A stretch of DNA of 64,000 nt, taken from positions 1 to 64,000 of the forward strand of contig CADATO010000004.1 of assembly GCA_902790905.1 (NCBI GenBank), given 5' to 3'. The translations under genes were made by a program, and so were the position numbers. This document shows, one piece after another, positions 11,916 to 27,905 of the stretch (positions within the stretch are counted from its first letter, which is position 1; each line of letters begins with the position of its first letter). Below the pieces are notes generated by a model. It saw nothing but the letters and a program-made list of their open reading frames with translations, ran no database searches and was not told the origin of the DNA. This DNA is from an uncultured Eubacteriales bacterium (lineage in GTDB: Bacteria > Bacillota > Clostridia > Peptostreptococcales > Anaerovoracaceae).

Positions 11916-14159
11916 ATGGTCAAGTATTTAGAGCAGGGCACGCAATGGATCAACGGCGCCCCGCAGAAAGCCGCAGAAAGTGTTGATAAGAATGCCGGCC
12001 GGAACGGCACGATCGCGTATCAGATCATGAACGCTCATCGTGACGCTACCGAAGACGGCATTTTTCATATCCGCTTTAATGCGCTTGTTTCCCACGATAT
12101 CACTTATGTCGGGATCATCCAGACCGCAAGAGCGAGCGGCCTGAAGGAATTCCCCATCCCGTATGCGATGACCAACTGCCACAACAGCCTGTGCGCAGTC
12201 GGAGGCACCATCAATGAAGACGACCACGTATTCGGTCTCTCCGCTGCCAAGAAATACGGCGGCATCTACGTGCCGGCCAACCAGAGCGTCATCCACTCCT
12301 ATGCAAGAGAAGAGCTGGCTGCGTGCGGCAACATGATCCTCGGATCCGACAGCCACACCCGTTACGGCGCGCTCGGCACGATGGGCGTCGGCGAAGGCGG
12401 CCCCGAACTCGTCAAGCAGCTCCTGAAGAACACCTATGACGTAGCACCGCCGGAAGTTGTGCTCTGCTATGTCACAGGCGCACCGAAGAAGGGCGTCGGC
12501 CCGCACGACGTGGCGATCGCACTGGTCAAAGAGACATTCGGCAAAGGCCTTGTCAAGAACAAGGTCCTTGAGTTCGCAGGCCCCGGCCTTGCTTCCCTGC
12601 CGTACGACTTCCGCAGTGGCATCGACGTCATGACGACCGAGACGACCTGCCTGTCCTCCATCTGGGCGACCGACGAGGAGATCGAAAAGTACTACAACGA
12701 CTACAAGCGCCCCGAGTGCTTCAAGAAGCTGGAGCCCAAAGAAGGCGCGTACTACGATGCGATCATCAACATCGAACTCGACAAGGTCGAGCCGATGATC
12801 GCGCTGCCGTTCCATCCGTCCAACGCGTACACCATCCACGAGTTCCTCGAGAACGCGGATGAGATCCTGGCGGGTGTTGAAGAAGAAGCGAAGAAGAAGT
12901 TCCCGAAGGCGCACCTCGACCTGCGTTCCAAGGTCAGCGAAAAGGGTGTCCTGGCAGACCAGGGTGTCATCGCGGGCTGCTCCGGCGGTCTGTTCGACAA
13001 CATCGTCGAGGCGGCGGACATCATGGCGGGCGGCAGCACCGGCAACGGCTACTTCTCGCTCAACGTCTATCCGACCAGCGTTCCGACCAGCCTGGCGCTG
13101 ACCAAGGCGGGCAAGACCATGAACCTGCTCGAGGCGGGCGCGGTCATCAAGCCCTCGTTCTGCGGTCCGTGCTTCGGCGCCGGCGATGTTCCGGCCAACA
13201 ACGGCCTGTCCCTGCGTCACACCACGAGAAACTTCCCGAACAGAGAAGGTTCCAAGCCGGGTGAAGGCCAGATCAGTGCTGTCGCGCTGATGGATGCGCG
13301 TTCGATCGCAGCCACCGCAAAGAACGGCGGTTACATCACGGCGGCGACCGATGTGGACTACGAGACAGAACATCTCCACTATGAATTCGATAACACGGTT
13401 TATAAGAATCGCTGCTACTACGGCTTTGGCAAGGCGGATCCGGATGCTGAGCTGATCCTCGGACCGAACATCACCGACTGGCCGAAAATGTATGAACTCG
13501 CAGACAACATGCTGCTCGAGCTCGATGCGGTCATCCGCGATCCGGTCACTACGACCGACGAACTGATCCCGTCCGGCGAGACCAGCTCCTACCGCAGCAA
13601 CCCGCTGCGCCTGTCCGAGTTCGCGCTCTCGCGCCGCGTACCCGAATACGTCGGCCGTTCCAAGGCTGTCGCAGCGGACGAAGCAGCCAGACGCGAGGGT
13701 CAGAAGCCCGAGAAGATGGTGGCGGCACTGAGCAAGGTCGGCGATGCGGATGAGCTGATGAAGAACACCCAGTTCGGTTCCTGCGTCTTCGCCAACAAGC
13801 CCGGAGACGGCTCCGCCCGTGAACAGGCGGCATCCTGCCAGAAGGTGCTCGGCGGCTTCGCGAACATCTGCTACGAGTATGCGACCAAGCGTTACCGCAG
13901 CAACTGCATCAACTGGGGCATCCTGCCGTTCACACTCGCGGAAGGCGCAGAGTTCCCCTATGAAGACGGCGACTTCGTCTTCGTGCCCGGCGTCCGCGCT
14001 GCCATCGCATCCGGTCAGGAGGAGATCCCGGCCAAGGCGATCCGCAAGGACGGCACGGTCGAAGACCTGACCCTGTATGTCAAGGGTCTGACCGAAGACG
14101 AGAAAAAGATCATTCTTGAAGGCTGCCTGATGAACTACTACGCAGCGCAGAACAAATAA
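11916..14159 (+). CDS. acn: Aconitate hydratase
   Basis: The 747-residue cytosolic enzyme interconverts citrate and isocitrate through cis-aconitate. The three cysteines that hold the [4Fe-4S] cluster are visible: Cys355 in IAGCSGG, and Cys416 and Cys419 in FCGPCFGAG. The substrate-side sequences [20 protein letters not shown] and [16 protein letters not shown] (swivel domain) are also present. It belongs to the shorter, bacterial-anaerobe aconitase type rather than the 890-residue AcnA. The ATG follows CAGGAGGAATC. The isocitrate dehydrogenase gene follows after 10 bp and citDEF after that, so one transcript probably carries aconitase and citrate lyase together. Confidence 0.93.
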
Positions 14160-14169
14160 AGGAGAACCC

Positions 14170-15384
14170 ATGGACAAGATCAAAATGACAACTCCGCTCG
14201 TCGAGATGGACGGCGACGAAATGACCAGAATCCTCTGGAAGATGATCAAAGATGAGCTCATTCTTCCGTTCGTAGATCTGAAGACCGAGTACTACGACCT
14301 CGGCCTGCCGGTCCGTGACGAGACCGGTGACCAGATCACCAAGGATGCCGGCGAGGCGATCAAGAAGTACGGCGTCGGCGTCAAATGCGCGACGATCACC
14401 CCGAACGCACAGCGCATGGAAGAGTACCATCTCCATGAGATGTGGAAGAGCCCGAACGGCACCATCCGTGCCATCCTCGACGGCACCGTCTTCCGCGCCC
14501 CGATCACCATCGACAGCATCAAGCCGGTCGTGAAGAACTGGAAGAAGCCAATCACCGTTGCCCGTCATGCGTACGGCGACCTGTACAAGGGCACCGAGTA
14601 CCGCGTTCCTGAAAAGGGCAAGGCGGAGCTCGTCTTCACCGGCGAGAACGGCGATTCCTTTAGAGAGACCATCTACGACTTTGAGTGCCCGGGCATCCTG
14701 CAGGGCATCTACAACAAGGACACCTCCATTGAGTCCTTCGCGCATTCCTGCTTCAAGTATGCGATCGAGACCAAGCAGGATCTGTGGTTCTCCGCGAAAG
14801 ACACCATCTCCAAGAAGTACGATATGCGTTTCCGCGACGTCTTCCAGGAGATCTACGACAAGTGCTATAAGGAAGAATTCGAGCGCCTCGGCCTCGAGTA
14901 CTTCTACACACTGATCGACGATGCGATCGCGCGCGTCATCCGCAGCGAAGGCGGCTTCATCTGGGCACTGAAGAACTACGACGGCGACGTCATGAGCGAC
15001 ATGGTCTCCACGGCCTTCGGTTCGCTGGCGATGATGACCTCCGTTCTGTGCAGCCCGGACGGCAAGTTCGAGTATGAAGCGGCGCACGGCACCGTCACCC
15101 GCCACTACTACAAGTACCTGAACGGCGAAGAGACCTCCACCAACCCGATGGCGACGATCTACGCCTGGAGCGGTGCTCTGAAGAAGCGCGGCGAGATGGA
15201 CGGCCTGACTGACCTGACCGCATTCGGCGAGAAACTGGAAGAAGCGTGCATCGACACCCTGACAGACGGCATCATGACTAAGGACCTCGTCGGTCTGGCA
15301 GAAGGCCTCGATGTCACGCCGGTGAACTCGATCGACTTCATCCGCGCCATCCGCGAGAGACTGGAAAAGAAACTCGAGGCGTAA
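14170..15384 (+). CDS. icd: NADP-dependent isocitrate dehydrogenase (type II, eukaryote-like)
   Basis: The 404-residue product starts with the type II signature [20 protein letters not shown] and has substrate-binding [11 protein letters not shown] and [17 protein letters not shown]. Metal-binding [19 protein letters not shown] and the cofactor region [15 protein letters not shown] are also present. This homodimeric class converts isocitrate to 2-oxoglutarate with NADP. The ATG is 10 bp after the acn stop, with a GGAG site in the gap. In this setting it links citrate to glutamate synthesis, or works in reverse. The octamer GCGATTCC occurs at 14651-14658, read as Gly-Asp-Ser-Phe. Confidence 0.95.
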
Positions 15385-15426
15385 GCGCAACAGGCTGAAA
15401 CCTAGCAACAGGGAGGAGCATATAAC

Positions 15427-15723
15427 ATGAAAATCATCACAACTGCATCGGCGGGGACCATGGAGTCCAGCGACATCATCGTCCGCATCGAGCCTGCAGA
15501 AAAACCCGGCATTGAGATCCATCTGACCTCCAGCGTCATGCAGCAGTTTGGCAGACAGATCGAAGAAGCGATCCGCGGCACCCTGGGCAATCTGGGCGTC
15601 GAGGATGCGCGTGTAGAAGCTGTTGATAAGGGAGCACTGGACTGCACGATCAAGGCGCGCGTAAGCGCAGCCGCATTCAGAGCAGCAAAGCGCAATGACT
15701 ATGACTGGAGGGTGAAGCAATGA
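15427..15723 (+). CDS. citD: Citrate lyase acyl carrier protein (gamma subunit)
   Basis: The 98-residue product has the CitD length and the modification segment ASAGTMESSDIIVRIEP. Ser14 should carry the 2'-(5''-triphosphoribosyl)-3'-dephospho-CoA arm that shuttles acetyl and citryl groups in the lyase complex. A GGGAGGAGC site precedes the ATG. Its stop overlaps the citE start by four bases. The enzymes that make and attach the arm are encoded on the opposite strand at 19130-20542. Confidence 0.95.
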   Translation: MKIITTASAGTMESSDIIVRIEPAEKPGIEIHLTSSVMQQFGRQIEEAIRGTLGNLGVEDARVEAVDKGALDCTIKARVSAAAFRAAKRNDYDWRVKQ

Positions 15724-16613
15724 GACTGCGGCGCAGCATGATGTTCGTACCGGGCAACAACCCCGGTATGATCAAGGATGCGGGCATCTTCGGTGCCGAC
15801 TGCATCATGTTCGACTTGGAAGACTCCGTCGCGATGACCGAAAAAGACACCGCGCGCTTCCTGGTCTACAACGCACTGACAACACTGGACTACGGCAACA
15901 TCGAGAAGGTAGTCCGTATCAATGACCTGTCCTCGGGCCTCGGCATCGAGGACCTCGAAGCGATCGTCCGCGCCAAGCCGGACGTCATCCGTCTGCCGAA
16001 GACGGAGAATGCACAGGACGTCATCGACTGCGAAGCCGAGATCGAGCGCATCGAGCGCGAGGCCGGCATCCCGGTCGGAACCACCGGCATGATGGCGGCG
16101 ATCGAGACTGCGGGCGGCGTACTGAATGCGTATGAGATCGCCCATTCCTCCAAGCGCCTGATCGGTATCGCGCTTGGTGCAGAGGACTACGTCACAGACC
16201 TCAAGACCACCCGCAGCGACGACGGGACCGAGCTCTTCTTTGCAAGAGGCATGATCCTGAACGCGGCGAGAAGCGCCGGCATCGACGCACTGGATACGGT
16301 CTATTCCGACGTGAACAACGAGGAAGGCTTTATCCGCGAAGCGACCATGATCAAGAAGATGGGCTTCAGCGGCAAGAGCATCATCAACCCGCGTCAGATC
16401 GCGCCGCTGCATGAGATCTTCATGCCGCGCGAAAAAGACCTGATCAAGGCCCGTGCGGTTATGGAAGCGATCCGCGAAGCGAACGAACGCGGCAGCGGTG
16501 TTGCTTCCCTGAACGGCAAGATGATCGACCGTCCGGTCGTCATCCGCGCACGGTATCTGCTGGAACTCGCCGGGGAAAATCCTGACGGAGAAGAAGAGAC
16601 GCAGGAGGTATAA
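15720..16613 (+). CDS. citE: Citrate lyase beta subunit (citryl-ACP lyase)
   Basis: The 297-residue product belongs to the HpcH/HpaI aldolase fold. Its start, RRSMMFVPGNNPGMIKDAGI followed by DCIMFDLEDSV, is typical of CitE, and EAIVRAKPDVIRLPKTE and IALGAEDYVTDL follow. It cleaves citryl-ACP into oxaloacetate and acetyl-ACP. The ATG overlaps citD by four bases and lies downstream of GGAGGGTGAAGC. The length is normal and all motifs appear present. citF follows after 3 bp. Confidence 0.96.
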   Translation: MRLRRSMMFVPGNNPGMIKDAGIFGADCIMFDLEDSVAMTEKDTARFLVYNALTTLDYGNIEKVVRINDLSSGLGIEDLEAIVRAKPDVIRLPKTENAQDVIDCEAEIERIEREAGIPVGTTGMMAAIETAGGVLNAYEIAHSSKRLIGIALGAEDYVTDLKTTRSDDGTELFFARGMILNAARSAGIDALDTVYSDVNNEEGFIREATMIKKMGFSGKSIINPRQIAPLHEIFMPREKDLIKARAVMEAIREANERGSGVASLNGKMIDRPVVIRARYLLELAGENPDGEEETQEV

Positions 16614-16616
16614 CGG

Positions 16617-18137
16617 ATGGATATTTCGAAAATCAGACATATTGATGACATTGCACAGAACGGTCCGTTCCTGCCTGACGGCACAAAACAGAAGGGCAAC
16701 ATGGGCGACAGCGGCAAGATGCTCGAGTCGATCCATGATGCGATCGTTGCGACCGGTCTGAAAGACGGCATGACCATCTCGTTCCACCATCATTTCCGCA
16801 ACGGCGACTACATCGTTAACATGGTCCTCGATGAGATCGCAAAGATGGGCATCAAGAACCTGACCGTGGCGGCCAGCTCGCTTGCCAGCTGTCATGCGCC
16901 GATGATCGAGCACATCAAGAACGGCGTTGTTACCCACATTGAAACGTCCGGTATGCGCGGCGAACTCGCAGAGCAGATCTCCCGCGGCCTGATGGATTTC
17001 CCGGTCGTATTCCGTTCGCACGGCGGCCGCGCAGCAGCCATCGCAAGAGGCGAGCTGCACATCGACGTCGCGTTCCTGGGGGCGCCTTCGTGCGACCCGC
17101 TCGGCAATGCCAACGGCTACAACCGTGACGAGGAAGGCGCGACCATGTGCGGTTCTCTCGGCTACGCCAAGGTGGATGCGGAATACGCGGACAAGGTCGT
17201 CATCATCACTGACCATGTCGTACCATATCCGAACACACCGTTCGGGATCCCGGCTGTCCAGGTCGACTACATCGTTCCGGTTGAGAACATCGGCGACCCG
17301 GCAGGCATCATGAGCGGGGCGACCCGTTTCACCAAGAACCCGAAGGAACTCCTGATCGCCAAGGCAGCGGCGGAAGTCATCATGAACTCCGGCTATTTCT
17401 ACGACGGGTTCGCGATGCAGATGGGCTCCGGCGGCGCTTCGCTGGCGACAGTGCGATTCCTCAGAGAACGCATGGAGCAGGAAAACATCCACGCGCACTT
17501 CGCGCTCGGCGGCATCACCGGACAGATCGTTGAGATGCATGAAGAGGGCCTGATCGACAAGATCCTCGACGTACAGTCCTTCGACCTGCAGGCGGCACAG
17601 TCCCTGAAAGATAACAGATTCCACGCGCAGATCGACGGCTGCTTCTACGCCGGCTACGACGACAACGGTGCTGCGGTCAACGCTTTGGACTTCGTCGTCC
17701 TCTCCGCGCTGGAGATCGATACCGACTTCAACGTCAACGTCCTGACGGGCTCCGACGGCGTCATCCGCGGCGCGATCGGCGGCCATCCTGACACAGCGGC
17801 AGGCGCAGGCCTTTCCGTCGTTGTCGGCCCGCTGACAAGAGGCCGTATCCCGACGGTCGTCAAGGAAGTCAACACGGTCGTCACACCGGGCTCCATCGTC
17901 GACGTCTTCGTCACCGAGCAGGGCATCGCGGTCAACCCGAGACGCCAGGATATCATCGAGAAGATGGAAGCGGCGGGCATCGAGCTCACCGACATCGAGA
18001 CCCTGCGCGAGAAGGCGGAGAAGATCGTCGGCAAACCCGACCCGATCAAGCATCTCGACAGAGTCGTCGGCGTCGTTCTCTACAGAGACAACACCGTCAT
18101 CGACCAGATCAAGCAGATCGACGAGTCGGCACTGTAA
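16617..18137 (+). CDS. citF: Citrate lyase alpha subunit (citrate:acetyl-ACP transferase)
   Basis: At 506 residues this is full-length CitF, which swaps acetate for citrate on the acyl carrier protein. Recognisable parts are DGMTISFHHHFRNGDYIVNM near residue 41, LGGITGQIVEMHEEGLIDKI, and TGSDGVIRGAIGGHPDTAAG with the CoA-transferase-like glycine loop. VFVTEQGIAVNPRR lies near the C-terminus. It is the last gene of acn-icd-citDEF and is followed by a terminator. The octamer at 17453-17460 reads Val-Arg-Phe-Leu. Confidence 0.96.
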   Translation: MDISKIRHIDDIAQNGPFLPDGTKQKGNMGDSGKMLESIHDAIVATGLKDGMTISFHHHFRNGDYIVNMVLDEIAKMGIKNLTVAASSLASCHAPMIEHIKNGVVTHIETSGMRGELAEQISRGLMDFPVVFRSHGGRAAAIARGELHIDVAFLGAPSCDPLGNANGYNRDEEGATMCGSLGYAKVDAEYADKVVIITDHVVPYPNTPFGIPAVQVDYIVPVENIGDPAGIMSGATRFTKNPKELLIAKAAAEVIMNSGYFYDGFAMQMGSGGASLATVRFLRERMEQENIHAHFALGGITGQIVEMHEEGLIDKILDVQSFDLQAAQSLKDNRFHAQIDGCFYAGYDDNGAAVNALDFVVLSALEIDTDFNVNVLTGSDGVIRGAIGGHPDTAAGAGLSVVVGPLTRGRIPTVVKEVNTVVTPGSIVDVFVTEQGIAVNPRRQDIIEKMEAAGIELTDIETLREKAEKIVGKPDPIKHLDRVVGVVLYRDNTVIDQIKQIDESAL

Positions 18138-18178
18138 AAAACCACCGCGCCGTAAGGCGGATGGGCACAGAAAAAATG

Positions 18179-18208
18179 AAGCGGTCCTCGCAGGAGGGCC
18201 GCTTTTTT
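18179..18208 (+). terminator. Terminator after citF
   Basis: AAGCGGTCCTC pairs with GGAGGGCCGCTT (one wobble) around a short loop, followed by TTTTTT. It separates the two convergent citrate operons. Confidence 0.88.
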
Positions 18209-18239
18209 CATGCGGTATGTCCGGGGTGCTGCAGCCCGG

Positions 18240-19133
18240 CTACTGGTCTATGAATGATGCAGCGGACTGTTTCGCGAACTCCCAGGCGCTCCGCACGGCG
18301 GGCGTCATCTCGTGGGAGGCGCACCGTAGCAGGCAGACGTCCATGGTCATGGACTTGTCCGCGAACGGGATGAGTTTAACGTTGAAGTTGTCGAGGATCG
18401 GCAGTTTCGGCATGATGGCGACGCCTGCGCCGGTCGTGACCGAAGCCGCGATGGAGCTGTACTCATCCGCCTCAAAGACGGTGTTCGGCGTGATGGCCGC
18501 CTTCTTGAACTGCGACTCGAGTTCGTGGTAGATGACCGCGTCGTGCGTGATGGAGATGAAATTCTCGTCGGAGATATCATTGAGTGTCACGCTGTCGCGC
18601 GCTGCCAGCCTGTGCGAGTCTGGGACGGCCAGGAACAGTTCCTGTCGGTAGATCGGGACGTAGTCGATCGAAGCGATCTCGGGCCTGCCGGCGATCAGAA
18701 GATCGAGCGACCCGTTCAGCAGCTGCTCGATGAGCTCGCCCGTCATGCCCTGACGGAAGCGGAACGCGGTCTGCTCGCTGCCCTGGTACGCGTAGAACTC
18801 GTTGACGAACGTCGGCAGGAGAGCAAAGCTGACGCTGTAGATGTAGCCGAGGTTGATGATCCCGGCGGAAGGCTGCTGCATTTCCTGCAGGTGGTCGATG
18901 CCGCTGGAGACCTCGCTCAGCGCGCGCTTGGCGTAGGGGAAGAACTCCTTGCCGTACTTGGTCAGAGAAACCTTCTTGCCGTTCTTCTCAAAGAGCGGCA
19001 CCCCCAGCTCCTTCTCCAGCTTGCTGATCGCATAACTCAGGCTCGGCTGGGAGATGTAGAGCAGGTTCGCGGCCCGCGTGTAGTGCAGGACTTCCGCGGT
19101 GACGCAGAAATATCTGAGTTCCTGAAGTGTCAT
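18240..19133 (-). CDS. LysR-family transcriptional regulator, probably of citrate metabolism
   Basis: The 297-residue protein starts MTLQELRYFCVTAEVLHYTR and has the LysR winged helix-turn-helix (AANLLYISQPSLSYAISKLE, about residues 21-40). The LysR effector domain starts near residue 90 (INLGYIYSVSFALLP). Its ATG overlaps the citXG stop by four bases, so it is co-expressed with the lyase maturation genes. Candidate targets are the palindrome upstream of acn (11761-11785) and the dyad upstream of citC. The effector is probably citrate or a related acid, inferred from context only. Confidence 0.88.
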   Translation of the reverse strand: MTLQELRYFCVTAEVLHYTRAANLLYISQPSLSYAISKLEKELGVPLFEKNGKKVSLTKYGKEFFPYAKRALSEVSSGIDHLQEMQQPSAGIINLGYIYSVSFALLPTFVNEFYAYQGSEQTAFRFRQGMTGELIEQLLNGSLDLLIAGRPEIASIDYVPIYRQELFLAVPDSHRLAARDSVTLNDISDENFISITHDAVIYHELESQFKKAAITPNTVFEADEYSSIAASVTTGAGVAIMPKLPILDNFNVKLIPFADKSMTMDVCLLRCASHEMTPAVRSAWEFAKQSAASFIDQ

Positions 19134-20542
19134 AGCGTGCCTCCTTCATTTGAGGTGGAATCGCTCAGCGGCAGTTCCAGTGCCGCCGAGAGACTGCGCC
19201 AGTGCTCCAGCAGGAACGCCAAAGCAAGCATATCTGCACTGCCGCCGGGGGATAAGTTGCGCAGGATCATGATGCGGTCCATCTCGGTGAGCGCTTCGGC
19301 GCGCTGGAAGATGGGCATGGATGCGATCTGTGCGGCCATCTGCTGTGTAAAGGTAAGTCCGTCTGGACCACCGCGGTGCAGAAGGTTCGTATCCTCGAGC
19401 GCCGCCATGCTGTCGCAGAAGGCGAGTGCGCCCGCATTGTCGTAGTTGTGGTCGCGGTACCAGCGGAGCCGCTCCGCGCAGAAGACTGCGTGCGGAAATC
19501 CCGCCGCCGCTTCGCCGGTCGCGCCTTTGGCGCCGTAGGCGGCGAGTACTTTGCCGCCGTTGGTGGACGGGGCTTCTTCGGATGCCTTGAGGCGTGCTTC
19601 GGCGTCCTGGGAGGCCAGTGCGGAGGCATATTGGATTGCCGCTGCGACCGGGTCCATGTTGGGATCCTCTTCGCTGTTATCGCCGGCTTCCGTGTCTGCC
19701 GCTGTCAGTGTGTGCCCCATGCCTGCGAGCAGGAGCCCCATGGAGTACACCATGCCTTTGTGCGTGTTGACGCCGCCGGTGGCGTCAAACATTTCTTTTT
19801 CACCTGCCGCGCCGCAGGTGCGCAGGGCGGCCATTTCGCAACCCTCCATGCCGAGCAGGGCGGCTTTGCGGAAATAGGGCAGCAGGCTGGCTGCGCTCTT
19901 TTCAAAGAGCGGGATATCCATATCTTTGTGGGCGCCGTTATTCGCTTTGTCCACAAGGCCCGGCTTGGGCGTGGTGTAGAGCTCGTCGAGCAGGGCGCCG
20001 TATGCAGCCTGTGCCAGGGTGTCTGCGCAGAACTCTTTCAGCAGTTTATTTGTGGCGGCCTTGATGGCGTCGAGCCCGTGGGCGCGGCTTCTGGCGCATT
20101 CCGCCGCCGGCGCATCGCAGACGAGGCATCGCCGCGGTGTGGCGCGGGAGAGCTTTTCGCCGCCCGGAATCAGCACATCAAAATCAAACAGGCGCGCGGC
20201 AGGGAGCGATTCCTCGACCTTCTCCAGCTGCGCCTTGACCTCTTTGGCATCGTCTCGGACGAGCCAGAACGCTTCGCTGCCGGTGGCTTCATCGATCTGA
20301 TGCTCCTGCAGAACGGTCAGTCCGAGCGCATTGAAAGCAGCAATGCCACGCTCAAACAGCATGCGCGTCATCGGCGTCCGTTTGATCTCTCCGGCGATAT
20401 TGAGCGTCAGGCAGACAAGACAGCCGGTGCTCATTCCATCGGAAGAGGACGGCTGCAGGGCCTGCAGCATGTCGTATTGTATGGTGGCACGTCTTTCGCG
20501 TGCATTAAGCATCATTTCCAGCGTGACGTAAGATGGTCTCAT
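19130..20542 (-). CDS. citXG: CitX-CitG fusion: citrate lyase holo-ACP synthase / triphosphoribosyl-dephospho-CoA synthase
   Basis: I choose ATG 20542 (MRPSYVTLEMMLNARERRAT), preceded by GGAG seven bases upstream. An internal pair of ATGs at 20512-20515 is less likely because it would cut the conserved start. Residues 1 to about 165 match CitX (TGCLVCLTLNIAGEIKRTPM, then RRCLVCDAPAAECARSRAHG), which attaches the prosthetic group to CitD. The rest matches CitG (ALLDELYTTPKPGLVDKANN, THKGMVYSMGLLLAGMG, ILRNLSPGGSADMLALAFLL), which makes that group from dephospho-CoA and ATP. The order X-then-G in one 470-residue chain is known in some bacteria. The start overlaps the citC end by 38 bases. Confidence 0.92.
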   Translation of the reverse strand: MRPSYVTLEMMLNARERRATIQYDMLQALQPSSSDGMSTGCLVCLTLNIAGEIKRTPMTRMLFERGIAAFNALGLTVLQEHQIDEATGSEAFWLVRDDAKEVKAQLEKVEESLPAARLFDFDVLIPGGEKLSRATPRRCLVCDAPAAECARSRAHGLDAIKAATNKLLKEFCADTLAQAAYGALLDELYTTPKPGLVDKANNGAHKDMDIPLFEKSAASLLPYFRKAALLGMEGCEMAALRTCGAAGEKEMFDATGGVNTHKGMVYSMGLLLAGMGHTLTAADTEAGDNSEEDPNMDPVAAAIQYASALASQDAEARLKASEEAPSTNGGKVLAAYGAKGATGEAAAGFPHAVFCAERLRWYRDHNYDNAGALAFCDSMAALEDTNLLHRGGPDGLTFTQQMAAQIASMPIFQRAEALTEMDRIMILRNLSPGGSADMLALAFLLEHWRSLSAALELPLSDSTSNEGGTL

Positions 20543-21485
20543 AAGTTGTCTCCGGTACGAGTTCTCTGGTCTTTTCGTATTCACCCGCCTGGACCAGTGC
20601 GCGTACACGGCTCGCGCTGATTTCCGCATAGCGGGGGATCTCCACAAGTTCGATGCCCTGTCCTGGCAGGAGTTCTTTCATGCGTGTGTTGTAGGCGGCT
20701 GTGACGGGGGAGAAAGGCTCCTCGCCGACAAACCGCTTTGTGATATGAAGCGCCGGGGCGATCCTGCCGGCGAAGAAGGCGATGTCGAGGTCCGCCTTGA
20801 CCAGGTCCGCCCGCGTTTTGTCCTTGATGAAATACGCGGGGAACGTGGCGCGCGACACAAGGTAGAGGTCGCTGCTGAGCACGTGGCAGTTCGGCAGATC
20901 TTCGGTGCCTTTTTGGATCATTTCGAGCCGTTCCTCCGGGGAGAACATGGAGCCCTTCTCGGCTACGGCGAAGACGTACAGGTGATCGCAGTGCTGTGAG
21001 GCGTATTCAATCAGGTGCCGGTGTCCCCGTGTGAACGGGTCGCAGTTGCAGACGACCGCGCCGCATGTCCCGTCAAAGCGGGGCAGGGAGGCGATGAAGT
21101 CCGCGGCGCCGCCGGTGCGGTTTTCCATCAGGAGAGCATCCGGGATCTCCACGACGGTGTGAAAGCCCATGGAGTTCAGCATCGGCTTGTTCACCGGTTT
21201 TGTGCACACGAAGAGGCGGAAGATGTCGCGCTGGGCAGCTTCGTTGATCAGCGCGGAGAGAACGGTCGCCATCGCGCCCGTGCCTTCGATCTGCGGAGCG
21301 ACCGCCACCTGCTTCAGTGTGTGGCCCGCCAGCGAGCCGCAGCCGACGAGCAGGCCGTCGTCATCGGTCATCCAGGCGACGAGATCGGCGTCCTCTTCGT
21401 CCCGCAGCCCTGCGGATGCGAGGAACGCGTCGTATTCTTGCTGTCTGCGCGCGTTGAGCGGCGTGCGGTAAATCGTGATTCCCAT
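20505..21485 (-). CDS. citC: [Citrate (pro-3S)-lyase] ligase
   Basis: ATG 21485 (MGITIYRTPLNARRQQEYDA) has a good GGAGG site five bases upstream, so I prefer it to an upstream methionine that lacks one. The 326-residue product has an N-terminal acetyltransferase-like domain (CGSLAGHTLKQVAVAPQIEG). The C-terminal nucleotidylyltransferase domain has the ATP-binding loop CNCDPFTRGHRHLIEYA and the EISASRVR motif. It acetylates the CitD arm with ATP and acetate and thus switches the lyase on. It is the first gene of citC-citXG-lysR. Confidence 0.95.
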   Translation of the reverse strand: MGITIYRTPLNARRQQEYDAFLASAGLRDEEDADLVAWMTDDDGLLVGCGSLAGHTLKQVAVAPQIEGTGAMATVLSALINEAAQRDIFRLFVCTKPVNKPMLNSMGFHTVVEIPDALLMENRTGGAADFIASLPRFDGTCGAVVCNCDPFTRGHRHLIEYASQHCDHLYVFAVAEKGSMFSPEERLEMIQKGTEDLPNCHVLSSDLYLVSRATFPAYFIKDKTRADLVKADLDIAFFAGRIAPALHITKRFVGEEPFSPVTAAYNTRMKELLPGQGIELVEIPRYAEISASRVRALVQAGEYEKTRELVPETTYETILRHAGNDA

Positions 21486-21508
21486 AAATGCCTCCAGTCC
21501 TATCAGAA

Positions 21509-21551
21509 AGTATACCATCTTTTGGCGTGCAGGAAACGCATTTGTATACAA
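21509..21551 (-). promoter_or_regulatory. Possible citC promoter and dyad
   Basis: Read on the minus strand, TATACT (complement at 21509-21514) has a weak -35-like TTTCCT 16 bp upstream. TTGTATACAA, a perfect palindrome, lies at 21542-21551, just upstream of the -35 region. That position would suit LysR activation. The -35 is poor, so confidence is modest. Confidence 0.4.
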
Positions 21552-22474: not shown

Positions 22475-23347
22475 TCAGTCGTCGGCTTCCGCCAGCGCTT
22501 CTTCCTTAAACCATTGCATCAGGTCGCGCAGCAGCTTGTTGTTGGCGTCGAAGGTCACATCCCTGCCGTCCATGCCGGGCTTGTCAAAGCCTGCCGCGCG
22601 GGCGACCGGAAGGACATTCGGGGAGGTGGCGGTCAGGAATGCCGCATCAAACTGGTCCAGGCAATCTGCACGCACCGTCTGTTCCACATAGGGGACATGG
22701 TGCTCCTCCAGGATCTTGAGGACCATCAGGCGGGTGATGCCGGGGAGGATCGTGTCGGACGGCGACGCATAGACGGTATCGTCCTTGATAAAGAAGAAGT
22801 TCGTGCGGCTGCCCTCGGTGATCTCTCCGTTGTGGTTGACGAGCATGACCTCGAAGAAGCCGCTATCGATGAGCGCCTGGTCCGCGCGTCCGCGCAGGGC
22901 GACATCGCTGATCTTGGCCTGCGGATTGTTGCGCTCGCCGTGCAGATACCCGACCGTGACACCGTCGCGGTAGTTTTCTGCCGTGGGGTAGTGTGTCGGG
23001 ATCAGGTACATATAAATATGTTCTTTGCCGTCTTCCTCATCGACGTACTGCTCGATCCGGACGTTCTGGTCATCGACGCCGCACTTTTCGACGAGCAGCT
23101 CGATCTGGGAGCAGAACTCCTCCTCCGTGACGAGCGGCTTTCTGCCCACCAGTTCGAAGGAGTGCACAAACCGCTGGTAGTGTTCGACCGGGAAGACCGG
23201 GATGCCGCTCTTGATGCGGAGCACTTCGTAGACCTCTTTGCGGTCTTTGTCCATGATCGCATCGAGTGCGCTGCGGGGCGCGAGTGCGCCGTCCGCGATG
23301 ATATAATCGTTGTTCTGATAGCCTTTGTGGTCTGGTTCTAAAATCAT
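22475..23347 (-). CDS. Class IV PLP aminotransferase (BCAT/D-amino-acid transaminase family)
   Basis: The 290-residue product has the class IV fold. Lys145 in PQAKISDVALRG should bind pyridoxal phosphate. ITEGSRTNFFFIKDDTVYAS at about 177-196 is the conserved cofactor-binding stretch, and DTILPGITRLMVLKI follows. It starts MILEPDHKGYQNNDYIIADG with a GGAAC-type ribosome site. Family members act on branched-chain amino acids, D-amino acids or aminodeoxychorismate, and sequence reading cannot separate these. Directly upstream, on the other strand, starts the RraA-like cluster. Confidence 0.87.
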   Translation of the reverse strand: MILEPDHKGYQNNDYIIADGALAPRSALDAIMDKDRKEVYEVLRIKSGIPVFPVEHYQRFVHSFELVGRKPLVTEEEFCSQIELLVEKCGVDDQNVRIEQYVDEEDGKEHIYMYLIPTHYPTAENYRDGVTVGYLHGERNNPQAKISDVALRGRADQALIDSGFFEVMLVNHNGEITEGSRTNFFFIKDDTVYASPSDTILPGITRLMVLKILEEHHVPYVEQTVRADCLDQFDAAFLTATSPNVLPVARAAGFDKPGMDGRDVTFDANNKLLRDLMQWFKEEALAEADD

Positions 23348-23473: not shown

Positions 23474-23571
23474 TTTACAAATGGTAAACCGCTCTGTATA
23501 GTAGGGGCAGATAAAGGAAGAGAAGTTCTCTTTTCCCTGCGATTGATAAACCATGAAAAAACCATTATAGT
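23474..23571 (+). promoter_or_regulatory. Two tandem promoters for the RraA-like cluster
   Basis: TTTACA (23474-23479), 17 bp, TATAGT (23497-23502), and again TTGATA (23543-23548), 17 bp, TATAGT (23566-23571). The second promoter would start only about 17 nt before the ATG at 23595, just leaving the AAGGAGGAAAG ribosome site. Confidence 0.6.
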
Positions 23572-23594: not shown

Positions 23595-24260
23595 ATGGCT
23601 ATTTACAGCAAAGAGATCATTGAAAGATTCAGAGCGGCGGCGACAGCCAGCGTGGCGGATGCCTGCGACATCGTCGTAAAGGACAAACGCTGCGTGATGG
23701 ACTACGCCATGCGGCCGCGCGTCAAAGAGAGAAAGATCGTCGGACCGGCGGTCACCGTGCTCGACGGAGCGGGGACAGATCCGCAGCCGCCGACACACAT
23801 CATCGACACGCTCGACAATGCAGAAGGCGGCGAGGTCATCGTCGTTTCGCTGAAGGAGAACGACCTCAACTGTGCACTGTGGGGCGGCCTCATGACAGCA
23901 GGCGCCTTCGTGAACGGTCTGGAAGGCGCGGTCCTCAACTGCGGCGTGCGCGACCTGACCGAGATCAGAAGAGACTATCCGGATTTTGAGATCTACTCGC
24001 AGTCCATCGTGCCTGTGACGATGGTCTCGAGATACGTCACGATCGATAAGAACCTGCCGGTCGAATGCGCGGGCGTCATCGTCAACCCGGGCGACCTCAT
24101 CGTCGGCGACATCGACGGCGTCATCTGCATCCCGCAGGAGCACGTCGAAGAAGTCCTCGCAGTGGCAGAAGACATCGATAAGAAAGAGGCCATTCAGACA
24201 AAAGCGATCTTCGAAACGAAGTCCTTTGGTCAGGGGCTTGCGAAGTTCAACAGATTCTAA
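23595..24260 (+). CDS. RraA-like protein (aldolase/decarboxylase superfamily)
   Basis: The 221-residue protein has the RraA/4-hydroxy-4-methyl-2-oxoglutarate aldolase fold: TASVADACDIVVKDKRC, KIVGPAVTVLDGAG, ALWGGLMTAGAFVNGLEGAV with the substrate-binding glycines, then GVRDLTEIRRDYPDFEIYSQ with the metal-site RD pair. VNPGDLIVGDIDGVICIPQE follows. Family members either cleave or decarboxylate oxo-acids or bind RNase E. In a bacterium of this type with this context, an enzymatic role is more likely. It is the first gene of a cluster with a Cys-rich unknown, a LUD protein and a cupin. Confidence 0.85.
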   Translation: MAIYSKEIIERFRAAATASVADACDIVVKDKRCVMDYAMRPRVKERKIVGPAVTVLDGAGTDPQPPTHIIDTLDNAEGGEVIVVSLKENDLNCALWGGLMTAGAFVNGLEGAVLNCGVRDLTEIRRDYPDFEIYSQSIVPVTMVSRYVTIDKNLPVECAGVIVNPGDLIVGDIDGVICIPQEHVEEVLAVAEDIDKKEAIQTKAIFETKSFGQGLAKFNRF

Positions 24261-24308
24261 ACTGCTGCGGAGCAGCAGGAGCGATTCCTTAAGGTAATGG
24301 AGGGAAAC

Positions 24309-25151
24309 ATGAAAGCAGTATTTACACTTAAAAGTGCCGAGTCCAGAAGACTCATCGCCAAGGGCCTCGTCGAGATGCCGATCGTCAAGGAAGCGTGGGA
24401 GAAGGCATACGTCCTGCTCGCAGGCGGCACCACCAACGCATACGTCGCACAGGAACTGATGGGCACGGATGAATACCGTCCGGAGCTCTGCACCGTCGGC
24501 CTGTCCACGAACGGCGTGCTGTGCAACACCCCGCTTGAGAGCCGCAAGTTCTTCCCGATGGTCTACAAGCAGGGCGTGCCGCAGGAAGACATGGCCCTGA
24601 AAGACGGCCTGTTTGATTTCTATCCGGAGACCGTCGTCATTAAGGGCGCGAACGCGATCGACCCCGAAGGCAACGTCGGCATCATCACGTCCGGTTTTGA
24701 CGGCGGCACCATCCCGAACATCATCGGACCGGTCACCTCGAACGGCCTCAGATGGATCTGCCCGGTCGGCCTCGAGAAGCTCGTTCCGTCCGTCAAAGAG
24801 TCCTGCAATGCAGTCGGCGCAAAGCGCATCGACATCTCCATGGGCGCGGACTTCGGTATGTACCACATCGCCACAGCGATCCCGTTCACTGAAAAGGAAG
24901 CGCTGAAGACCCTGTTCAACCTGGAGACCACGCTCGTCGCAGCAGGCGGCATCGGCGGCAACCAGGGCAGCGTCGTACTGGCGGTCGAGGGCGAGAAGGA
25001 AGACGTCGAAGCGTGCGTCGAATTCATTGAAAAGGAAGTCAAGGGCGAGCCGGATGTCCCGGGCAACAAGGGCAACTGTGAGGTCTGCCGTTACAAGAGA
25101 TGCCGTTACTGCGGCATGACGGAAGAGCAGCTGCCGGACTGGATGAAGTAG
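24309..25151 (+). CDS. Uncharacterised protein with C-terminal cysteine cluster
   Basis: I prefer ATG 24309 to ATG 24297, because the GGAGGG ribosome site lies between them. The 280-residue product reads AYVLLAGGTTNAYVAQELMG, VVIKGANAIDPEGNVGIITS and FDGGTIPNIIGPVTSNGLRW, Gly-rich loops resembling NagB/RpiA/CoA-transferase-like folds, to which the adjacent LUD protein also belongs. The end carries CEVCRYKRCRYCG, four cysteines that could bind a metal or Fe-S cluster. I do not know a function. The octamer with a small hairpin precedes it (24262-24288). Confidence 0.75.
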   Translation: MKAVFTLKSAESRRLIAKGLVEMPIVKEAWEKAYVLLAGGTTNAYVAQELMGTDEYRPELCTVGLSTNGVLCNTPLESRKFFPMVYKQGVPQEDMALKDGLFDFYPETVVIKGANAIDPEGNVGIITSGFDGGTIPNIIGPVTSNGLRWICPVGLEKLVPSVKESCNAVGAKRIDISMGADFGMYHIATAIPFTEKEALKTLFNLETTLVAAGGIGGNQGSVVLAVEGEKEDVEACVEFIEKEVKGEPDVPGNKGNCEVCRYKRCRYCGMTEEQLPDWMK

Positions 25152-25196
25152 CATAAGGCTGCCGGGCGCAGCCATGACAATGTTGGAGGAAAGAAA

Positions 25197-25799
25197 GTGG
25201 ACTTCACAAAGGCGAAGAGAAATCTGGAGAGAAACGGCTTCGAAGTGCATGTCTTCAAGACGGGCACCGAGGCGGCAGCACATCTGAATGAAGAGCTGAA
25301 CGATGTGAGCATCGGCTTCGGCGGCAGCAAGACGCTGGATCAGCTGGGGCTCTACGAATCGCTCAGTGAGCACAACGACGTCTACTGGCACTGGAGGCAG
25401 GACGCGGACTATGCCAGAGAGAAGTCTATGAACACAGATATCTACATGAGTTCCGCGAACGGACTGGCAGAGACGGGCGAGATCATCTTTGTGGACGGCA
25501 ACGGCAACCGCGCCGCGAGTATCCTGTGGGGACACAAGAAGCTCATCCTGGTCGTGGGCAGCAACAAGCTCGCGCCGGACTACACGATGGCCGTCGCAAG
25601 ATGCCGCAACGTGGCCTGCACGATGCGCAATGCGGACTTCCCGGGCCAGCCGGCCTGCGTGAAGGCGGGCACCGTCGGCACACGATGCTTTGACTGCAAG
25701 AGCAAGAACCGCCAGTGCAAGGCGATGGTCACCCTCTGGCAGCCGATGAACGGCACGCCGTGTGAAGTGATACTGATTGACGAAGAATTGGGGTATTAA
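25197..25799 (+). CDS. LUD-domain protein (lactate-utilisation-like)
   Basis: The start is GTG 25197, with TTGGAGGAAAG upstream. The 200-residue product shows NDVSIGFGGSKTLDQLGLYE, NTDIYMSSANGLAETGEIIF, VDGNGNRAASILWGHKKLIL and VVGSNKLAPDYTMAVARCRN, the typical LUD/LutC-like sequence. A later CFDCKSKNRQC gives extra cysteines. LUD proteins take part in lactate or other hydroxy-acid oxidation, usually with Fe-S partners, and stand-alone short forms are common in clostridia with unknown roles. The gap to the Cys-rich gene is 45 bp and to the cupin 1 bp. Confidence 0.82.
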   Translation: MDFTKAKRNLERNGFEVHVFKTGTEAAAHLNEELNDVSIGFGGSKTLDQLGLYESLSEHNDVYWHWRQDADYAREKSMNTDIYMSSANGLAETGEIIFVDGNGNRAASILWGHKKLILVVGSNKLAPDYTMAVARCRNVACTMRNADFPGQPACVKAGTVGTRCFDCKSKNRQCKAMVTLWQPMNGTPCEVILIDEELGY

Positions 25800-25800
25800 A

Positions 25801-26181
25801 ATGGCAAAAGCAAAGATCTTTGATGTCAATGAACAGGAATGGAAACGCGACTGGGGCAACGGCCTCAGCTCCTGCGTCATGAAGCTGCCGCCGCTGGCGA
25901 CACTGCAGTACTGGGAACTGCCGGCAGGCTGCGGGGCGGAGCCGCACAGCCACGAGAACATCCAGCTGACCTACGTCCAGAACGGCAAAATGCAGCTCAA
26001 CGTGGACGACGAGTCCTACATCCTGAATGAAGGCTGCTTTGCGCTGATCCCGGCGAATGCAGTTCACTCCACCAAGAATGTCGGCAGCACGACGGTCGTT
26101 AACATCGACTTCTTCCTGCCGGACAGAGATGACCGCGAAGACAGCGTGAAGATCCGCGACTTCGGTCACGAGATGAAATAA
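25801..26181 (+). CDS. Cupin-domain protein
   Basis: ATG 25801 lies just after the LUD stop. The 126-residue product is a single beta-barrel cupin. His49 and His51 in EPHSHENIQLTYVQNGKMQL and His89 in NAVHS can form the metal site. Such small cupins act as isomerases, lyases or ligand sensors. The tight spacing suggests it works with the LUD protein. It is the last gene before a strong terminator. Confidence 0.85.
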   Translation: MAKAKIFDVNEQEWKRDWGNGLSSCVMKLPPLATLQYWELPAGCGAEPHSHENIQLTYVQNGKMQLNVDDESYILNEGCFALIPANAVHSTKNVGSTTVVNIDFFLPDRDDREDSVKIRDFGHEMK

Positions 26182-26207
26182 GGCAGCATTCCGTTATATG
26201 GAGAAAG

Positions 26208-26239
26208 AAAAACCGAACCGGTTTCCGGTTCGGTTTTTT
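26208..26239. terminator. Bidirectional terminator between convergent genes
   Basis: AAAAACCGAACCGG pairs with CCGGTTCGGTTTTTT around a 3-nt loop, with A and T tracts on both flanks. It serves the cupin gene (plus) and the amidohydrolase gene (minus). Confidence 0.92.
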
Positions 26240-26294
26240 GCTGCTGTAAACAGGCGGATTGTACCGCAGGGACATTGTCCGGCAGCCGGTGCGA

Positions 26295-27905
26295 TTACTT
26301 GACGGCGATCGCCATGCCGGCGGTGCGGAGCGTTTCCTTGTCGATCTCACCCTCGCACAGGACTTCCTTGCCATTCATGAAGACGCGTCTGATGCCGAAC
26401 GGTTTGCCCTGGTCCGGTTCGGTATCGCGGATCTCGTCCTCGTCGAAGACAGTGATGTCCGCATAGCAGCCGGGCTTGATGTAGCCGCGGTTCTCCAGCA
26501 TGAAGCGGTCTGCCCAGGCGCCGGACATCTTGCGGATCATCAGCGGCATGTCGCCGCCCTTGCCGGTCAGCGAGTCGTGCAGGAACTTCGGGAAGTTGTC
26601 GTAAAGAGCCGGGTTCTGTACACCGTGATCTTCGACCCAGGCATCCGTCATGAACAGGCAGTCGGGGTTCTTTTCGAAGTCCTCGATGATCTCGCGGGTC
26701 GTGTAGGGGCCCTGGTTGACGCGTCCCTTGAAATCGCTCTTCTCGCACAGTTCGAGGTACATCTCGGCGTCGGAGAGCCCGCGCTCGACCGCGTTCTCGT
26801 GGACGGTCTTGCCCTCGTATTCCTCGTATCCCGGGCCGATGTAGGCGACCTGGATATCGTCGTAGCCAAAGCCGACGAGCTTGATCTCGAGCTTTGTGAA
26901 CAGGTCGAACTTGCGGAAGTTGCTCTTCTTGCGCTTTTCTTCCGGTGTCATCGACTGGTACCACGGCGGCATGATGACGGTGATGACGCTGACGCCCAGC
27001 GTTTCGTCGTAGATGTCGAACATGATATCGACACCGTCCTTTTTCAGTTCGTCAACGATCTTGAGGAATTCCTTCTGGTCCTTGAAGGTCTTGCGCCCGA
27101 CGAAGATGGCATGCGAATACTGGAGCTTGAGCGGGGTGCCCTTGGCGATCTCAACGAGTTCATCCAGCGCGCGCAGCAGGTGGGAACGGCCGAAGATCTG
27201 CTTGTAGGCGCCGGAGACTTTGGACTCGGCACGCGGGTGGACCGTCAGCGGGCGGTCGTACTTGACGCACAGCGCCGCGACTTTCTTGAGCTCTTCAACA
27301 TCGGCGAACAGTCCCGGGTCGTACATCATTCCGAGGGAGATGCCCGCAGCGCCCTGCTGGAGCTGCTGTTCGAGCAGATCGAGCATCTTGTTTGTCTCTT
27401 CCTCGGTCAACGGCCGGTTGACGCTGCCGCTCGCCGCTGCACGGGCTGAGCAGTGTCCCGCAAGGATCGCGAGGTTCGCCGGCGCGTTGCGGTCGACCGC
27501 CTTGAGGAAGTCCTCTGTCATGCCGTATTTGCCGGTCACATCCTTAAAGCCGAACAGCCCGCCGCCCATCAGGTCGATGTGCTCGTTGCCGTCTTCAAAA
27601 CCGACGACCGAAAGACCGCAGTTGCCGGTGACGAAGGTCGTGACACCCTGCCGCAGGAACGGCTCGAAGAAGGGGAACGGATCTTTGCGGATCGCAAACC
27701 AGTCGTTGTGAGAGTGCCCATCGATAAAGCCCGGGGAGAGGGACAGACCGCCGAGGTCGATCTCTTTATCCGCTGCGGGTATTTCTGCGCCGGGTGCATC
27801 CGGAATGACCGCGACAATTTTTTCGTCTTCAATCAGTACGCTGCCGGCAAACGCATTGCTGCCGGTGCCGTCGTAGATGCGGGCGTTCTTGATCAGTGTT
27901 TTCAT
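26295..27905 (-). CDS. D-aminoacylase-like amidohydrolase (N-acyl-D-amino-acid deacylase family)
   Basis: The 536-residue product has the D-aminoacylase layout: a small beta domain, then GFIDGHSHND with metal ligands His64 and His66. GNCG with Cys96, typical of this subfamily, follows, then GMMYDPG, TVHPRAES, LQYSHAIF and a late MTDAWVEDHG carrying the catalytic Asp. The C-terminus ends GCYADITVFDEDEIRD. These enzymes hydrolyse N-acyl-D-amino acids, N-carbamoyl compounds or related amides. GGAGGAAAAGG precedes the ATG. It converges on the RraA/LUD/cupin cluster, and a shared pathway is possible but unproven. Confidence 0.85.
   Translation of the reverse strand: MKTLIKNARIYDGTGSNAFAGSVLIEDEKIVAVIPDAPGAEIPAADKEIDLGGLSLSPGFIDGHSHNDWFAIRKDPFPFFEPFLRQGVTTFVTGNCGLSVVGFEDGNEHIDLMGGGLFGFKDVTGKYGMTEDFLKAVDRNAPANLAILAGHCSARAAASGSVNRPLTEEETNKMLDLLEQQLQQGAAGISLGMMYDPGLFADVEELKKVAALCVKYDRPLTVHPRAESKVSGAYKQIFGRSHLLRALDELVEIAKGTPLKLQYSHAIFVGRKTFKDQKEFLKIVDELKKDGVDIMFDIYDETLGVSVITVIMPPWYQSMTPEEKRKKSNFRKFDLFTKLEIKLVGFGYDDIQVAYIGPGYEEYEGKTVHENAVERGLSDAEMYLELCEKSDFKGRVNQGPYTTREIIEDFEKNPDCLFMTDAWVEDHGVQNPALYDNFPKFLHDSLTGKGGDMPLMIRKMSGAWADRFMLENRGYIKPGCYADITVFDEDEIRDTEPDQGKPFGIRRVFMNGKEVLCEGEIDKETLRTAGMAIAVK

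Follow-up and report, generated by a model that had tools for sequence, protein, structure and literature searches.

A 280-residue protein encoded in the window (the whole stretch of 64,000 nucleotides from an uncultured Eubacteriales bacterium that was analysed) represents a widespread unnamed family, for which fold and limits are well supported. A core of the ISOCOT (NagB/RpiA/CoA-transferase) type is predicted and is followed by a C-terminal cysteine knuckle. Our leading reading, which we put forward tentatively, is that the gene is the second of a lineage-specific accessory metabolic operon and that its product may have a role in the metabolism of 2-oxo or 2-hydroxy acids. The family occurs in many archaea and in about a quarter of the genomes sampled from the phylum, yet has no Pfam or NCBIfam model; with fold, limits, conserved tail and fusion partners now given, it is open to direct experimental test. 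Less remarkable is the operon, since the four other proteins considered are, judged by their sequences, ordinary representatives of known families and are not kept together in other genomes.

Four co-directional genes lie on the + strand at 23595-26181 in the order RraA-like protein, 280-residue Cys-tailed protein, LUD-domain protein and cupin. The spacing between them is 48, 45 and 1 bp, a Shine-Dalgarno-like stretch precedes each gene, and their GC3 of 0.77-0.82 is coding-like; by this layout they are read as a small operon. Together with a convergent D-aminoacylase-like gene (26295-27905, - strand) they are genuine, far beyond chance, as four of the five match curated Pfam families, while the exception, the 280-residue protein, has relatives in many phyla. 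Ahead of the operon, two sigma-70-like promoter candidates on the + strand (TTTACA-17-TATAGT at 23474-23502 and TTGATA-17-TATAGT at 23543-23571) were located by consensus scan only, and 7 kb contain 12 sites of this type with 17-nt spacers, where 2.8 were expected from shuffled sequence. A predicted bidirectional intrinsic terminator at 26207-26239 separates the operon from the convergent gene and has a folding energy of -21.9 kcal/mol on the + strand (z -5.4) and -20.8 on the - strand (z -6.5). Since this hairpin is strong on both strands, it can terminate both units. The original prediction had described the short gaps, two tandem promoters, a shared terminator and the convergent gene, and all of these were located, the promoters as consensus matches.

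The second gene (24309-25151, + strand) most probably starts at 24309 rather than at the ATG at 24297, because a GGAGG closely precedes the former. Its product had been called unassignable, and in Pfam and NCBIfam it and 52 relatives gave at most weak, scattered matches; a comparison with the sequences of solved structures returned chance matches only. Evidence for an ISOCOT fold from sequence alone is weak. The AlphaFold2 model, built on a 53-sequence alignment, has a mean pLDDT of 93.7 and a pTM of 0.92, and it matches the NagB/RpiA/CoA-transferase folds with which comparison had been suggested. All 50 VIA-align matches listed are ISOCOT proteins, including eIF2B, RpiA, MtnA and ribose-1,5-bisphosphate isomerase; the best has a Z score of 9.6 and an rmsd of 4.4 over 150 aligned residues, within model residues 7-212. 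Foldseek matches were weak (best E 0.005, none under 0.001). The predicted fold is well supported, and we accept it because of the uniformity of the structural neighbours rather than because of any single score. With the ISOCOT superfamily (eIF2B, RpiA, MtnA, the sensor domains of DeoR regulators) the protein shares the predicted fold of residues 1-215 and Gly-rich strand-loop segments, but it differs by the missing Pfam or NCBIfam match and by the cysteine knuckle. Short profile matches to 6-phosphogluconate dehydrogenase (E 2e-4, about 65 positions) are taken as spurious because the predicted fold is a different one, and three family members with a weak NCBIfam match to this enzyme were judged in the same way. 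Conserved segments of the family are KGANAxD, GLEK and TE. Through these, the core of about 245 residues might act as an enzyme on a small metabolite, a carboxylate or a phosphate, or might bind it as a ligand.

The core would be followed by a Cx2Cx4C knuckle. The CxxC...CxxC tail noticed in the original prediction is present as C257-x2-C260-x4-C265-x2-C268 (25077-25112, + strand), and in the 17 close orthologues checked Cys257, Cys260 and Cys265 are all conserved, while Cys268 occurs in four. The conserved motif is thus Cx2Cx4C, followed one position on by an aromatic residue. Judged by this motif, its three cysteines may bind a metal, and could hold either Zn or an Fe-S cluster. Many family members within the phylum, and some from archaea, have similar short Cys tails; others have no tail.

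At E 1e-10, relatives are present in 107 of the 398 genomes sampled from the phylum; in the window's order, 12 of 297 genomes have a match. A scan of 84,980 species genomes, for which a narrower alignment was used (11 diverse homologues being too variable), gave 158 confirmed family stretches, archaea included, and the best 80 loci were kept for neighbourhood work. Members also occur in Magnetococcales, Myxococcota and other groups, and none is carried by a plasmid record. In the tree the protein is placed inside a group of Bacillota sequences that come from Oscillospiraceae, Lachnospiraceae and Mogibacterium. Its best match, from an Oscillospiraceae contig, is 67% identical, compared to 40% for the best in the sample of its own order, a difference that may reflect horizontal transfer.

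Enzymes of oxo- and hydroxy-acid metabolism are often encoded next to close orthologues of the 280-residue protein. An FAA hydrolase gene lies directly upstream in six loci, two of them near-duplicates, and other neighbours are a D-2-hydroxyacid dehydrogenase, Ldh_2, SDH_alpha, an aldehyde ferredoxin oxidoreductase, PanB, DHDPS, a set for 2-oxoacid:ferredoxin oxidoreductase and transporters. A PFL-like gene directly follows the ISOCOT gene in six genomes (L168, L170, L174, L176, L180, L184), all from a single further family of this phylum. From these raw occurrences of neighbours, a role of the family in 2-oxo-acid metabolism is our best guess and should be taken as a lead. The part of the original prediction that concerned an oxo or hydroxy acid agrees with the surroundings of the close orthologues. 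In the flanks fetched, the proposed neighbourhood analysis of the Cys-rich protein returned such enzymes and no relatives of LUD, cupin or D-aminoacylase.

Beyond the close orthologues the neighbours are mixed (UvrB, ribosomal protein S2, LptD, arginine deiminase, methyltransferases), a variety that a general function fits better than a single pathway. The protein could then serve in general housekeeping or in repair, independently of the genes around it, and the operon would have come together by chance. Variable neighbours agree with this, as does the fact that genomes from many families of the phylum usually carry a single copy, and so does the fusion of the family to unrelated domains. In relatives from the order (L004 and L006 by domain scan, L007 by length and sequence) the ISOCOT part is fused N-terminally to AroM (PF07302), beside a DUF1177 gene; these operons share the family with our cluster, which itself has neither AroM nor DUF1177. 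We found nothing in the literature on AroM together with DUF1177, and on AroM proteins only an unrelated paper. Elsewhere the ISOCOT domain forms the C-terminus of a 709-residue protein whose N-terminal part matches HD_5 (L041, which was scanned, and L190), while at locus L055 the HD_5 and ISOCOT parts are encoded by separate adjacent genes. Still, we regard a housekeeping role as somewhat doubtful: neighbours acting on 2-oxo and 2-hydroxy acids recur in the close clade, and the family is not essential in the window's order, because it is absent from most sampled genomes there.

To return to a role in 2-oxo- or 2-hydroxy-acid metabolism, a more specific form of this reading is an undescribed ISOCOT enzyme family with a metal-binding knuckle, which would act on a 2-oxo or 2-hydroxy acid together with exchangeable partners of the pyruvate class, such as RraA-like, FAA hydrolase, PFL-like or DHDPS-like proteins. 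In this specific form we consider it unlikely. In our leading reading, the partner of the 280-residue protein in this operon would be the RraA-like protein, a member of the pyruvate class, with which it may work on such an acid.

This RraA-like protein (23595-24260, + strand, 221 residues; PF03737 E 3e-29) is the sole one found in the genome. A class II pyruvate aldolase of the HMG/CHA type requires an acidic residue, Asp (or Glu), at the position 21 residues ahead of the Arg in an Arg-Asp pair. The PF03737 domain and the Arg-Asp pair are shared with the aldolase 3noj, the pair being retained as R119-D120 in the 3noj alignment and in a homologue comparison, but in the same alignment Gly98 takes the place of the metal-site Asp102, so that no acidic residue stands 21 positions before Arg119. 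The protein is thus of a Gly type. This Gly recurs in a 52% identical relative, while Asp or Glu is present in most of the other homologues. In the HMG/CHA aldolase, the corresponding Arg-123/Asp-124 pair is catalytic and metal-binding (PMC5065237). Because one acid of the metal site is missing, pyruvate-aldolase activity of the RraA-like protein is doubtful. Three tandem RraA-like paralogues were observed at loci L095, L096 and L158 in two genomes, with Gly, Asp and Glu/Asp at the metal-site position.

The original prediction saw in these five genes a good candidate for an undescribed pathway and named a lack of clustering in other genomes as a refuting outcome; such a lack is what their distribution shows. 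Within the flanks fetched, which are unequal and often limited by short contigs, none of the best 80 loci of the Cys-tailed protein has relatives of the LUD, cupin or D-aminoacylase genes, and at one of them a distant RraA lies about 7 kb away. Across the 297 order genomes, wherever flanking sequence was retrieved, homologues of the RraA, LUD and D-aminoacylase proteins are not close to one another, and 30 added loci from the phylum sample gave no pairing either. None of the other loci fetched has two of the five genes as neighbours. Amidohydrolases beside the family at L187 and L188 were considered as the same D-aminoacylase-like gene and set aside, the match covering only about 65 residues. 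The literature yielded nothing on this gene combination. A conserved set, or a single new pathway of these five genes, is not supported, and the cupin and the D-aminoacylase would be local companions of the operon, not obligate partners.

The convergent gene (26295-27905, - strand, 536 residues), a separate transcription unit, encodes an amidohydrolase (Amidohydro_3 E 4e-14) that is related to the D-aminoacylase family, as judged by similarity to 1m7j (E 6e-38) and by metal-site residues: H64-x-H66 and C96 align with the metal site, and the later His/Asp positions are present. The similarity to D-aminoacylase and N-acyl-D-glutamate deacylase (1m7j, 3gip) extends over most of the protein, although the window protein is longer and is not linked to the operon elsewhere. 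On the other side of the operon, a divergent class IV aminotransferase (22475-23347, - strand; PF01063 E 8e-36; 9j0u E 1e-32) is closest to D-alanine aminotransferases and is regarded as context, not as a proven part of the cluster. Both enzymes could be joined in a pathway in which an N-acyl-D-amino compound is converted to a D-amino acid by the D-aminoacylase-like protein and then to a 2-oxo acid by the aminotransferase, which would be passed to the RraA/ISOCOT/LUD/cupin operon. Although products and substrates chain logically, we consider this pathway quite unlikely. The genes belong to three separate transcription units, no other fetched locus pairs two of them, and relatives of the D-aminoacylase-like protein, present in 62 of 297 genomes of the order, do not adjoin the other genes in the flanks that were retrieved. 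Moreover, the aminotransferase scores 71 bits, far below the curated cut-off of 277 bits for D-amino-acid transaminases. The originally proposed link to N-acyl-D-amino compounds rests only on the convergent gene, which is transcribed separately.

Since the ISOCOT fold is common to the sensor domains of DeoR regulators (PMC3924224), the 280-residue protein might instead be a sensor or a ligand-binding domain and no enzyme, and the fusions to HD_5 (L041/L190) could be read in the same way. This is very unlikely, as the protein has no DNA-binding domain and as both the AroM fusion and the enzyme neighbours point to catalysis.

The third gene (25197-25799, + strand, GTG start) encodes an ordinary stand-alone LUD-domain protein of 200 residues, which at 106 bits is above the PF02589 gathering score of 22.6 (E 3e-30) and has relatives in 211 of 297 genomes of the order. 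The extra cysteines attributed to it are present but not unusual: C154, C164, C167 and C174 are invariant in 16 aligned relatives and are thus a trait of the group. LutC is a LUD protein as well, but the Fe-S partners LutA and LutB are not encoded at the locus, where the neighbours are the RraA-like protein, the ISOCOT protein, the cupin and the amidohydrolase. The cupin (25801-26181, + strand, 126 residues; PF07883 E 1e-14) has a single domain and begins 1 bp after the LUD gene. CoA-transferases often consist of two adjacent ISOCOT subunits. Structures of this kind are among the Foldseek matches to the 280-residue model, and since LUD is itself classed as ISOCOT (PMC3924224), two adjoining genes of the operon would encode this fold. 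That both proteins form a two-subunit CoA-transferase-like enzyme is nevertheless extremely unlikely, as the pair was seen in no other fetched locus, a Glu-Asn-Gly type motif of class I CoA-transferases was not noticed among the conserved sequence columns of the family, and a marginal profile comparison (hhalign probability 5.5%, E 0.007) makes the 280-residue protein a distant relative of LUD at best.

A few kb upstream of the operon sits a citrate lyase locus (11916-21551), with aconitase, an isocitrate dehydrogenase-like protein, CitE and CitF encoded on the + strand, followed by LysR, a fused CitX-CitG and citrate lyase ligase on the - strand. We do not favour the RraA-like protein as decarboxylase of oxaloacetate from this citrate lyase, because the metal-site Asp is missing and subunits of a biotin-dependent decarboxylase are encoded in the genome. 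Further upstream, 8916-11660 encodes a 915-residue protein with Cna_B and DUF7601 domains, which is probably a surface adhesin.
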